Assembly (NCBI RefSeq): GCF_015910535.1
Contig: NZ_JACBJG010000006.1
Coordinates: forward strand, 248,001 to 312,000
Direction of reading: 5' to 3'
DNA from: Saccharomonospora sp. NB11
Lineage (GTDB): Bacteria; Actinomycetota; Actinomycetes; Mycobacteriales; Pseudonocardiaceae
DNA: 64,000 nt
Under the pieces are notes generated by a model that searched no databases, was not told the DNA's origin, and was given only the letters and a program-made list of their open reading frames with translations. The position numbers and the translations under genes are program-made. Of the stretch, positions 2,079 through 5,197 are shown piece after piece (within the stretch, counting starts at the first letter, position 1; each line of letters starts with the position of its first letter).

Positions 2079-2366
2079 TCAGCGCCCGAGGCGGCCTCGA
2101 CCGAGGTTCAGCAGCGCCATGGCGAGCTGCCGCCCTTCGGGGCCCAGCTCCCGGTAGCGCGCGAGCACGTCCATCTCGCGGTTGTAGACGATGCGCGGGC
2201 CTCCGGCGGCCATCCGGGCGGCGCCGATCGTCTTCGACACCTCGGCACGTCGCTTCACGAGGCGAAGGATCTCGGCGTCGAGCCAGTCGATCTCCTTGCG
2301 GAGCTCGTCGATCTCCTCGGCGGCCGGGCGGGCGTCGTGGTCGGTGTCGCGGGTCTGGGCGTTCAT
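2079..2366 (-). CDS. aroQ: Chorismate mutase, AroQ-delta type
   Basis: This 95-residue protein converts chorismate to prephenate, the branch point to Phe and Tyr. The all-helical AroQ signature is visible in EEIDELRKEIDWLD, in the basic helix LRLVKRRAEVSKTIG and in the tail LGRGRLGR. Short length and tail match the secondary-subclass (delta) enzymes such as M. tuberculosis Rv0948c, which are activated by complexing with DAHP synthase. AGAGG lies 5 bases before the ATG at 2366. The gene is divergent from the PcrA helicase gene, as in mycobacteria. Its 5' leader carries a putative Phe/Tyr attenuator (leader peptide 2465-2527, hairpin 2411-2449), so expression is probably tied to aromatic aminoacyl-tRNA supply. 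Confidence 0.9.
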   Translation of the reverse strand: MNAQTRDTDHDARPAAEEIDELRKEIDWLDAEILRLVKRRAEVSKTIGAARMAAGGPRIVYNREMDVLARYRELGPEGRQLAMALLNLGRGRLGR

Positions 2367-2410
2367 CGTGACCTCTTCTCAGTCGTGGAGGTGGTCCGGT
2401 CCCCGAGACG

Positions 2411-2449
2411 ACGAAAGCCCCGGGGTCCGGTGGACTCCGAGGCTTTCGT
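2411..2449 (-). promoter_or_regulatory. Attenuator terminator hairpin in the aroQ leader
   Basis: ACGAAAGCC (2411-2419) pairs perfectly with GGCTTTCGT (2441-2449). An inner stem, 2421-2428 with 2432-2439, has one mismatch and a 3-base loop. Read on the minus strand, the hairpin sits between a 20-codon leader peptide and the aroQ start, 45 bases before the ATG. Its 5' arm CGGAGTCC (2439-2432) is also a perfect 8-base complement of GGACTCCG (2490-2483) inside the leader-peptide gene. This allows mutually exclusive antiterminator and terminator structures. No U-tract follows, which is common in high-GC actinobacteria. Confidence 0.7.
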
Positions 2450-2464
2450 GATGACTGGGTGGCA

Positions 2465-2527
2465 CTACGCGATCACGGGAGCCGGAGTCCGGATCCCGTA
2501 GAAAAATCGGAACGCGTCGTGTCGCAC
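2465..2527 (-). CDS. Phe/Tyr-rich attenuation leader peptide upstream of aroQ
   Basis: GTG at 2527 opens a 20-codon frame ending at TAG (2467-2465). The peptide reads MRHDAFRFFYG followed by IRTPAPVIA. Three Phe and one Tyr codon lie within five consecutive codons, the end products of the pathway that chorismate mutase feeds. The start is 7 bases after an extended -10 box (TGG then CATACT, 2540-2535), so translation would be leaderless. A ribosome stalled at FRFFY would leave 2490-2483 free to pair with the terminator arm, while one reaching the stop would cover it. This reading is inferred from sequence architecture. Confidence 0.7.
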   Translation of the reverse strand: MRHDAFRFFYGIRTPAPVIA

Positions 2528-2534
2528 GTCGTCG

Positions 2535-2540
2535 AGTATG
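2535..2540 (-). promoter_or_regulatory. Extended -10 box for the aroQ leader transcript
   Basis: On the minus strand TGG precedes CATACT, which matches TATAAT at four of six positions. Seven bases separate it from the leader-peptide GTG. No convincing -35 hexamer lies 17-18 bases upstream, which fits an extended -10 promoter. Confidence 0.5.
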
Positions 2541-2737
2541 CCACATCGAACCCCTTCCGAGGCCCGCGGTGACGTGGACCGCACGCGGCGCGGCGGTGCG
2601 GCGACGACGGCGACGTAACATCGAGACGTCCCTTCCCGCCGTTCCCCGGCTCGGGCGATCGGCTCGCCGTCGGTGGCATCGAGTAGCGTCGGCGCACGTC
2701 AGCTCGCCAGGCACGTCGTTAGGTCCAGTCACTCACG

Positions 2738-5197
2738 ATGAACACCCTGTTCGACCTTCCCCCCGAACCGGCGCACCGAGCCGGTGACTCGTCCTCCACC
2801 GACGCCCGTGAGGCTCTTCTGGAGGACCTCAATCCCGCACAACGTGCGGCGGTGGAACACCAGGGGCGCCCGTTGCTCGTCGTCGCCGGAGCCGGTTCCG
2901 GCAAGACCCGCGTGCTGACCAGGAGGATCGCCTACCTGCTCGCCGCGAGGGACGTGCATCCCGGTCAGATCATGGCCATCACCTTCACGAACAAGGCCGC
3001 CGCCGAGATGCGCGAGCGCGTGTCCGACCTGGTCGGCCGTCGGGCGGGGGCGATGTGGGTGTCGACCTTCCACTCGATGTGCGTCCGCCTGCTGCGGCGC
3101 GAGGCGAAGACGCTGGAGATGACGTCCAACTTCTCCATCTACGACGCCGACGACAGCAGGCGCCTCATGACGCTCGTGGGACGAGACCTGGACCTCGACC
3201 CGAAGCGTTACGCGGCGCGCGCGCTCGCCACGCACGTGTCGAACTGGAAGAACGAGCTGATCGACCCCGACGCGGCGGCTCAGGCCGCAGCCAGTGACTT
3301 CGACCGCAAGGCGGCCGAGGCGTACCGCGAGTACCAGCGCAGGCTCGTGCAGGCCGGGGCCATGGACTTCGACGACCTCATCATGCGGACGGTCGAACTC
3401 TTCCAGGCCTTCCCCGACGTCGCCGAGCACTACCGGCGGCGCTTCCGGCACGTCCTGGTGGACGAGTACCAGGACACCAACCACGCCCAGTACACGTTGG
3501 TGCGTGAGCTGGTGGGCACCGAACCCACCGAGTCCGGGCTGGAACCGTCGGAGCTGTGCGTCGTCGGTGACGCCGACCAGTCGATCTACGCGTTCCGGGG
3601 CGCGACCATCCGGAACATCGAGGAGTTCGAGCGCGACTTCCCCGACGCGCGCACCATCCTGTTGGAGCAGAACTACCGGTCGACGCAGACGATCCTGTCG
3701 GCCGCGAACGCGGTCATCGCCCGCAACCCGGGCCGTCGCGACAAGCGGCTGTGGACCGACGCGGGTGACGGTGAACGCATCGTCGGCTACGTGGCGGACA
3801 ACGAGCACGACGAGGCCGCGTTCGTGGCCGGGGAGATCGACGCGCTCGCCGACCGCGGGGAGGCGAACTACTCCGACGTCGCCGTCTTCTACCGCACCAA
3901 CAACCAGTCGCGGGTGTTCGAGGAGATCTTCATCCGGCTCGGGCTGCCCTACCGCGTCGTCGGCGGCGTGCGGTTCTACGAGCGCAAGGAGGTCCGGGAC
4001 GCCCTGGCCTACCTGCGGGTGCTGTCCAATCCCGAGGACACGGTGAGCCTGCGGCGCATCCTCAACGTGCCCAAGCGCGGCATCGGCGACCGCGCCGAGG
4101 CCGTGGTCGCGACGCACGCCGAGCGGGAGCGCATCTCCTTCGCCGCCGCCCTGCGCGACGCCGTGGCGGGCCGGGTGCCGCTGCTCAACCCCCGCTCGCA
4201 GAAGGCGATCAGTGCCTTCGTGGAGCTGCTGGACGGGTTGCGGGACCTGGTGGACGAGGGCACCGACGTCGCGGACGTGCTGGATGCGGTGCTCGACCGC
4301 ACCGGTTACCGCGCCGAGCTGGAGGAGTCGCGGGACCCGCAGGACGCCACACGGTTGGAGAACCTCGACGAGCTGGTGACGGTCGCCAGGGAGTTCACGG
4401 AGTTCGCCCAGACCGTGCGGGCGGAGCAGGAGGCCGGCGACGACGCCGACGACACCGATGACGGGGTCCCCGAGCCCGGCTCGCTCGCGGCGTTCCTGGA
4501 ACGAGTGTCGTTGGTCGCCGACGCCGACTCGATCCCCTCACCCGACGGCGAGGAGGACGACGAGGACGACCAGGGCGTGGTGACCCTCATGACCGTGCAC
4601 ACGGCCAAGGGGCTGGAGTATCCGGTCGTGTTCTGCGCGGGCTGGGAGGACGGTGTCTTCCCGCACCTGCGGGCGCTCGGCGAACCGAAGGAGCTGGCCG
4701 AGGAGCGCAGGTTGGCCTACGTCGCCATCACCCGGGCCCAGCGGCGGCTGTACCTGTCCCGCGCGCTGGTGCGCACGGCCTGGGGGCAGCCGATGAGCAA
4801 TCCGGCGTCGCGGTTCCTCGACGAGATCCCCGAGGAGCTGATCGACTGGCGTCGGCAGGAGCCCCGCAAGGAGGCCAGGGCGCCGCGGGCGGCCACCACG
4901 TGGGGGCGCAGGCCGGGCATCGGTTCCGACTCGGCGCAGGCGGGCCTCGCGGCAGGCGGGATGCGCACCACGTCATTCCAGGGCTTCTCGTCGTCGCCGA
5001 GGCGGGGCGACGCGTGGAAGAAGACGGTGGCGCTGAAGCTCGACGTCGGCGACCGGGTCAATCACGACAAGTACGGTCTTGGCACCGTCGTGGCCACCGA
5101 GGGGTCGGGTCCGAGGGCCACGGCCACGATCGACTTCGGCAGCGCGGGCACCGTGCGGCTCATGCTGATCGGCAGCGTGCCGATGGTGAAGCTCTGA
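2738..5197 (+). CDS. pcrA: ATP-dependent DNA helicase PcrA/UvrD1
   Basis: This is a superfamily 1A 3'-5' helicase of 819 residues acting in excision repair and replication restart. Visible motifs are the Q-motif region LNPAQRAAV, Walker A GAGSGKT (51-57), motif II DEYQDT (about 242-247), motif III GDADQSIY, motif IV ENYRST-like QNYRSTQT, motif V VTLMTVHTAKGLEYPVV and motif VI EERRLAYVAITRAQ. The C-terminal 55 residues (VGDRVNHDKYGLGTV) form the Tudor-like domain that in PcrA contacts RNA polymerase. Length matches the family. The gene is divergent from chorismate mutase and convergent with an M23 peptidase gene, as for M. tuberculosis uvrD1 (Rv0949). Confidence 0.97.
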   Translation: MNTLFDLPPEPAHRAGDSSSTDAREALLEDLNPAQRAAVEHQGRPLLVVAGAGSGKTRVLTRRIAYLLAARDVHPGQIMAITFTNKAAAEMRERVSDLVGRRAGAMWVSTFHSMCVRLLRREAKTLEMTSNFSIYDADDSRRLMTLVGRDLDLDPKRYAARALATHVSNWKNELIDPDAAAQAAASDFDRKAAEAYREYQRRLVQAGAMDFDDLIMRTVELFQAFPDVAEHYRRRFRHVLVDEYQDTNHAQYTLVRELVGTEPTESGLEPSELCVVGDADQSIYAFRGATIRNIEEFERDFPDARTILLEQNYRSTQTILSAANAVIARNPGRRDKRLWTDAGDGERIVGYVADNEHDEAAFVAGEIDALADRGEANYSDVAVFYRTNNQSRVFEEIFIRLGLPYRVVGGVRFYERKEVRDALAYLRVLSNPEDTVSLRRILNVPKRGIGDRAEAVVATHAERERISFAAALRDAVAGRVPLLNPRSQKAISAFVELLDGLRDLVDEGTDVADVLDAVLDRTGYRAELEESRDPQDATRLENLDELVTVAREFTEFAQTVRAEQEAGDDADDTDDGVPEPGSLAAFLERVSLVADADSIPSPDGEEDDEDDQGVVTLMTVHTAKGLEYPVVFCAGWEDGVFPHLRALGEPKELAEERRLAYVAITRAQRRLYLSRALVRTAWGQPMSNPASRFLDEIPEELIDWRRQEPRKEARAPRAATTWGRRPGIGSDSAQAGLAAGGMRTTSFQGFSSSPRRGDAWKKTVALKLDVGDRVNHDKYGLGTVVATEGSGPRATATIDFGSAGTVRLMLIGSVPMVKL

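Follow-up and report, generated by a model that had tools for sequence, protein, structure and literature searches.

A putative Phe/Tyr transcription attenuator upstream of the chorismate mutase gene aroQ in Saccharomonospora and its actinobacterial relatives

A leader between pcrA and aroQ

Chorismate mutase supplies Phe and Tyr, and control of the Rv0948c-type enzyme is discussed mainly as allostery. In the window (the whole 64,000-nt stretch of Saccharomonospora sp. NB11 DNA that was analysed), a leader lies on the minus strand between pcrA and aroQ, whose product has M. tuberculosis Rv0948c (2qbv) and 6ygt as its nearest solved relatives. We computed the anatomy of this leader, its conservation, the coevolution of its helices and a model of its switch, and together they indicate that a ribosome-mediated transcription attenuator very probably controls aroQ. 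All of this is computational; our confidence is high for the anatomy and good for the mechanism. The features are the following, with the evidence for each in brackets.

2738-5197, plus strand: pcrA (NCBIfam TIGR01073)
2535..2543, minus strand: extended -10, TGG-CATACT, with CATACT at 2540-2535 (sequence; TGn in 111 of 132 parsed relatives)
2465..2527, minus strand: leader ORF VRHDAFRFFYGIRTPAPVIA, 20 codons from GTG (2527-2525) to TAG, predicted to be leaderless (sequence; spacing in relatives)
2513..2527, minus strand: 5' strand of the outer helix, on the start side of the ORF (swap test)
2498..2506, minus strand: control codons Phe8 TTT, Phe9 TTC and Tyr10 TAC (conservation in 132 leaders)
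2475..2499, minus strand: inner 1:2 hairpin ACGGGA-T-CCGG-ACT-CCGG-C-TCCCGT, the anti-antiterminator (fold, consensus, swap test, column counts)
2482..2490, minus strand: core of segment 2, GGACTCCGG, the 5' strand of the antiterminator (swap test, column counts)
2472..2478, minus strand: 5' strand of the apical antiterminator helix, CCGTGAT, pairing with ATCAC (swap test)
2459..2471, minus strand: 3' strand of the outer helix, around the stop codon (swap test)
2448..2452, minus strand: 3' strand of the apical antiterminator helix, ATCAC (swap test; relatives have ACCAC opposite GTGGT)
2432..2440, minus strand: segment 3, TCGGAGTCC, both the 5' arm of the terminator and the 3' strand of the antiterminator (duplex comparison, modelled stalls, column counts)
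2411..2449, minus strand: predicted terminator hairpin, 39 nt, -28.6 kcal/mol, with a short U tract, TTTCGT, inside and after the stem (folding)
2371..2375, minus strand: SD-like GAGGT of aroQ (sequence)
2079..2366, minus strand: aroQ, stand-alone chorismate mutase of the Rv0948c type (NF005894, 124.8 bits, cutoff 73)

An earlier note on this DNA had described an extended -10 with CATACT, a GTG 7 nt beyond it, a 20-codon ORF and its stop codon, and we confirmed these base by base. The note had also placed a strong hairpin 45 nt before aroQ; the hairpin was found, at a spacing of 44 nt from the aroQ ATG at 2366, and the SD lies 36 nt past it. Its further claim, that part of the ORF is perfectly complementary to the 5' arm of the hairpin, holds for GGACTCCG (2490-2483) and CGGAGTCC (2439-2432); a ninth antiterminator pair is G.U in the window and G-C in most relatives. 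The 103-aa ORF after aroQ (1985-1674, minus strand) matched no family above its curated cutoff.

Several traits of an attenuator can be read in this region. A short ORF in the leader carries codons for Phe and Tyr, the end products of the pathway; the antiterminator and terminator are mutually exclusive and share one strand; and, by geometry only, a stalled ribosome would cover the 1:2 anti-antiterminator. The region folds at -72, compared with a dinucleotide-shuffle mean of -57.3 (sd 4.1), and beats 200 of 200 shuffles. The hairpin is strong and its U tract weak, and a U-tract terminator scan left it unflagged because its tail contains few T; in relatives, the 10 nt that follow the GGGG core contain 4.0 T on average. 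A consensus scan returned no -35/-10 promoter pair, and Rfam 15 (4227 families), searched with positions 2000-2800, gave three matches far below threshold and no leader or T-box family. Where the leader begins (2530-2511), a small hairpin followed by TTTTT was flagged as terminator-like and is possibly a pause site.

Four of the 20 leader codons specify Phe or Tyr, a binomial P of 0.018 against a Phe+Tyr background of 5.2% taken from 30 mechanically chosen ORFs. Judged from sequence, this count alone is weak evidence, and it is conservation that makes the case convincing.

Conservation and coevolution in relatives

We found the leader throughout the home family and well beyond it. A first covariance model (R1, built from 43 leaders) gave one match each in 246 of 249 genomes of the family (227/228 among the better assemblies), and it also matched 203/298 genomes sampled from the order and 49/394 sampled from the class. 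A broader model (R2, built from 26 leaders) matched 158/394 genomes of the class and 26/149 of the phylum, some of the weaker matches being terminator only; R2 matches weaker than ~1e-5 are often of this kind and were excluded from leader counts. The R1 matches L195 and L196 (group f41) and the R2 match L257 had no evident leader and were taken as chance.

The RNA leader was seen in all 80 loci that had been fetched by protein. Since these loci were collected through their protein, their chorismate mutase is no evidence of linkage, which comes instead from loci detected with the RNA model. Of 121 such loci, 115 have chorismate mutase downstream (54/54, 27/27 and 34/40 in three sets, counting loci that are not all independent species); in the set of 40, 32 were recognised by tblastn and two by NCBIfam. 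The remaining six comprise four before DAHP synthase and two before neither gene. By tblastn and NCBIfam, the leader precedes chorismate mutase in 12 family-level groups beyond the home family, with the 80 named loci assigned to f1 by assumption. A single enzyme tested from group f8 marks it as Mycobacterium-like; among the genomes listed, its genera g65, g96 and g98 gave no broader-model match and g80 and g83 a marginal one or none, so the leader may be lost or changed there. In L012, titled Rhodococcus rhodnii, the chorismate mutase region is almost identical to that of Kibdelosporangium L007, and the entry may be misnamed or contaminated.

For the leaders themselves, we assembled 141 sequences: the window, the 80 protein-found loci, 27 more (L136-L162) and 33 of the 40 further loci, leaving out four DAHP synthase loci (f31), two of f41 and L200, a duplicate of L139. 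From 13 family-level groups, 132 of the 141 could be parsed; L036, L038, L056, L069, L167, L170, L172, L173 and L174 could not and stand outside the counts. The short step from -10 to start codon, the basis for the note's leaderless peptide, recurs in all 132 parsed leaders, at 6 nt in 97 and 7 nt in 35, under a start rule that allowed gaps of 5-9 nt. A wider scan over 45 nt, which uses the rule-chosen starts, placed 107 of 114 TGN[CT]ANNNT motifs at 6-7 nt. From this spacing we infer that the leader ORF probably starts at or near the 5' end of the transcript. For comparison, a study in S. lividans reports a mean -10-to-start distance of 6.3 nt and 17% of transcripts as leaderless (PMC8079986).

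The control codons are conserved in homologous leaders, a check that the note had set, with Phe and Tyr in 132/132 parsed leaders, Tyr partly by construction since it served as a search anchor. Within peptides of 17-32 residues, FFYG occurs in 111 of the 132; Phe stands at the first core position in 131 (TTT in 130) and at the second in 112 (TTC 74, TTT 38), where the third base is free. Phe-Phe-Tyr stands in the open frame of 79 of 81 leaders (the window and the 80 loci). L036 and L069 each lack one T of the Phe run, which leaves their leaderless frame without Phe-Phe-Tyr, through mutation and decay or sequence error. In the home family the peptide FFYGxRTPAPV is nearly fixed. L016 replaces an inner-stem G-C by A-U with an altered peptide, and L023 has lost one base after FFYG and uses a different stop with the pairing kept; these two leaders suggest, at the sequence level, that selection acts on the RNA and the control codons and not on the peptide. 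The first core Phe codon (2506-2504 in the window) is near-invariant as TTT, perhaps as a slow codon, an unpaired loop or a polymerase pause, although 30 long ORFs of the window use TTT for just 5 of their 428 Phe codons.

An automatic consensus structure came out without the outer helix; hence, swap tests were used, in which native helix partners were compared with partners exchanged between species (20000 permutations). Across all families, native partners paired better in the outer helix between start and stop sides (-17.1 vs -13.2 swapped, 0/20000), the inner hairpin (-19.4 vs -15.1, 0/20000), the antiterminator core (-15.6 vs -13.7, 0/20000) and the apical antiterminator helix (-8.2 vs -7.5, 8/20000). 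The whole 2:3 duplex likewise favoured native partners by species (0/20000, 44 leaders) and by group (0/20000, 13 groups); in groups f7, f12 and f36, with one member each, the native 2:3 duplex had no advantage. Within the home family the outer helix was again strong (0/20000) and coevolution weak in the core (257 of 20000), the apical helix (1098) and the inner hairpin (406); the core and inner parts vary little within this family.

Column counts agree. Among 26 leaders, changes on both sides of a pair filled 28 cells in the inner hairpin vs 10.6 when shuffled, and 16 vs 3.7 in the antiterminator core, both above slid controls; the number of inner-hairpin pairs with both-side changes (4) was matched by 120 of 500 shuffles. 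Swap and column tests correct only partly for shared ancestry, and five of the terminator hairpins chosen for them may be wrong. The alternative pairing that the note had expected in homologous leaders is retained in them, with compensatory changes.

The modelled switch and its rivals

The modelled ribosome was assumed to cover the 15 nt that follow the first base of the P site. If it stalls with Phe9 as the A-site codon, free RNA begins exactly at GGACTCCGG. With polymerase at the terminator apex, the window antiterminator reaches -28.3 kcal/mol for a stall at Phe9, -28.1 at Phe8, -19.3 at Tyr10 and -1.8 at the stop codon; the means over 132 leaders are -26.8 (Phe9), -27.4 (Phe8), -21.0 (Tyr) and -3.8 (stop). 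In these models the antiterminator core is whole with a stall at either core Phe, shortened at Tyr and lost at the stop.

Equilibrium folding as the switch was rejected, since the terminator wins in nearly every state: the antiterminator was favoured in 9/132 leaders with a stall at the second Phe, 5/132 at the first Phe, 2/132 at Tyr and 0/132 at the stop. With its 3' arm present the terminator dominates, so the switch can only be a kinetic one, decided by the order of folding. In the ribosome-free window with polymerase at the apex, the minimum-energy fold is the antiterminator (-35.8). Hence, default termination requires that the 1:2 structure form first and persist; the long 1:2 structure averages -32.4 over the 132 leaders.

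The mechanism we propose is as follows. Transcription would begin at or adjacent to the GTG, so that a ribosome could load straight onto the 5' end. When charged tRNA-Phe is scarce, the ribosome would stall at Phe8 or Phe9 and cover the 5' strand of the 1:2 hairpin; GGACTCCGG, set free, would anneal to the terminator's 5' arm while the 3' arm has yet to be transcribed, and polymerase would enter aroQ. With ample Phe, a ribosome at the stop codon would occlude part of segment 2 together with the apical helix; the terminator would fold and transcription would end. Without a ribosome, the 1:2 structure would form first and termination would again follow. A stall at Tyr would give weaker read-through than one at Phe, and in sensing, Phe is therefore predicted by the model to dominate over Tyr, as reported for aroR (PMC11802643). 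The note's attenuation reading, with a mutually exclusive antiterminator and terminator, gains computational support from the shared strand, the coevolution and the modelled stalls; the present analysis adds to it a wider spread, a conserved outer helix, an apical antiterminator helix, a predicted precedence of Phe over Tyr from geometry and the U-poor tail.

Could the leader be something simpler? If it were a constitutive short RNA or an ordinary terminator near a promoter, the aromatic codons would be accidental; uncontrolled termination is common, and 4/20 Phe/Tyr gives a P of only 0.018. This is scarcely credible given that core Phe is kept in 131/132 and 112/132 leaders, the second with its third base free between TTC and TTT, that the antiterminator coevolves and that the codon set varies with the downstream enzyme. 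Nor is the peptide itself at all likely to act, as an arrest peptide or a small functional protein. Although FFYGxRTPAPV is almost invariant in the home family, its conserved part coincides with an RNA stem and changes with the RNA (RSAVPVGI, GSPAAVGRA, NRPTGCHGRAA, RIAVPVVSG), L023 keeps FFYG and the pairing yet shifts frame afterwards, and four leader peptides had no Pfam match and the window's had no NCBIfam match.

The weak U tract could also mean that the leader structures hide or free the aroQ SD, and mycobacterial cysteine attenuators are reported to act on translation (PMC13236596). Such translational attenuation is very unlikely here: the SD is 36 nt away from the hairpin, its predicted openness is 0.39 without a ribosome, 0.39 with a Phe stall and 0.42 with a ribosome at the stop (88/132 leaders with an SD), and in the same 88 leaders the share of the SD predicted to be paired to the leader or the terminator is just 0.09. 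Finally, transcription attenuation may be right with termination that depends on Rho or requires NusA/NusG instead of being intrinsic, as the short U tract of the window would allow. We consider this unlikely, since relatives carry a terminator hairpin of at least 6 pairs in 132/132 cases (mean -26.0, where five picks lie more than 40 nt past the stop and may be the wrong hairpin) and the members of f2, f13 and f15 examined show 4 to 7 T after the hairpin. The preferred reading is ribosome-mediated attenuation of transcription.

Known attenuators and related leaders before DAHP synthase

The closest described system is C. glutamicum aroR-aroF, which we set beside the window leader by its description. 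Reportedly, aroR is leaderless, and its attenuator is attributed to Neshat 2014. Like the window leader, aroR is actinobacterial and has a leader peptide with Phe and Tyr (Phe-Tyr-Phe in aroR); as is proposed for the window, it works by ribosome stalling. Stalling under Phe limitation is reported to raise aroR-aroF transcription (PMC11802643, PMC4046766); Tyr availability is given as without effect in PMC11802643, and control by both Phe and Tyr is given in PMC7356990. The two differ in target, DAHP synthase aroF for aroR and chorismate mutase for the window leader.

In E. coli, pheA encodes a bifunctional chorismate mutase/prephenate dehydratase and its leader is SD-led; pheL differs from the window leader in this SD, in sequence and in the bifunctional target enzyme. 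What pheA (pheL) and pheST share with the window leader, according to PMC11802643, are Phe codons and a mutually exclusive terminator and antiterminator. Streptomyces lividans leuL, ilvL and trpL resemble it as leaderless peptides with control codons, and the trpL1, ilvL and leuS leaders also carry a Rho-independent terminator; these attenuators serve other amino acids, and the eight listed in the passages seen do not include chorismate mutase (PMC8079986). The mycobacterial ilvB1 attenuator, from a related group, likewise has a uORF-controlled terminator and antiterminator but responds to branched-chain amino acids, and chorismate mutase goes unnamed in the main text of that study (PMC13236596). 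In Actinobacteria, Seliverstov 2005 reports elements for trp, cys, leu/ilv and ileS, and for the remaining amino acid pathways no structures that are conserved (PMC1262725).

In the open-licence PMC literature, supplements aside, we did not find the chorismate mutase leader described, and it may be listed elsewhere; the passages seen of PMC8079986, PMC4046766, PMC11802643, PMC7356990, PMC5784534, PMC4633059, PMC9094748, PMC4128351, PMC3388012, PMC4833913 and PMC13236596 do not describe it. The mechanism is of a known kind; in that literature we found no description of it with this target, of its spread or of the additional outer helix. With this leader, control of the chorismate branch point in many actinobacteria takes a concrete form that can be tested, and it bears on genera such as Amycolatopsis, in which aromatic amino acid supply feeds natural products.

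DAHP synthase supplies all three aromatic amino acids. The covariance models also match leaders, e.g. MQRNFWRFYGYRPTGSVARRALR and MNGYFGFWFFYGGDSPA, before AroF-type DAHP synthase genes (group f31, phylum-level group f67). These leaders (L193, L194, L201, L202, L239-L251 and L254-L256) are apparently leaderless and carry Trp, Phe and Tyr codons; the enzyme was identified by NCBIfam for L194 and recognised by its N-terminal sequence for the others. In the 17 of 20 that were parsed, the start lies 7-8 nt after the -10. The four core codons of the chorismate mutase leaders never include Trp (0/132), vs 17/17 parsed DAHP synthase leaders with it, a contrast whose Fisher value overstates independence because the DAHP synthase leaders come from few lineages. 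Codon content thus matches the place of the enzyme in the pathway: all three aromatic amino acids depend on DAHP synthase, and only Phe and Tyr on chorismate mutase.

Homology between the two sets of leaders is suggested by the model match and the shared FYG and RP motifs, and only by these. Tentatively, they may form a single Actinomycetota attenuator family whose codons are retuned for each gene (Phe/Tyr for chorismate mutase, Trp/Phe/Tyr for DAHP synthase). Such a family would set the aromatic entry and the branch point through tRNA charging, including in Mycobacterium-like and, by inference, Streptomyces genomes. The rare, near-invariant TTT would in that case introduce a timed pause, either of the ribosome or of the polymerase. 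The Trp codons offer a natural test of whether codons track the pathway position of the gene. Of the unparsed DAHP synthase leaders, read by eye, L193 and L255 contain Trp and L256 does not.
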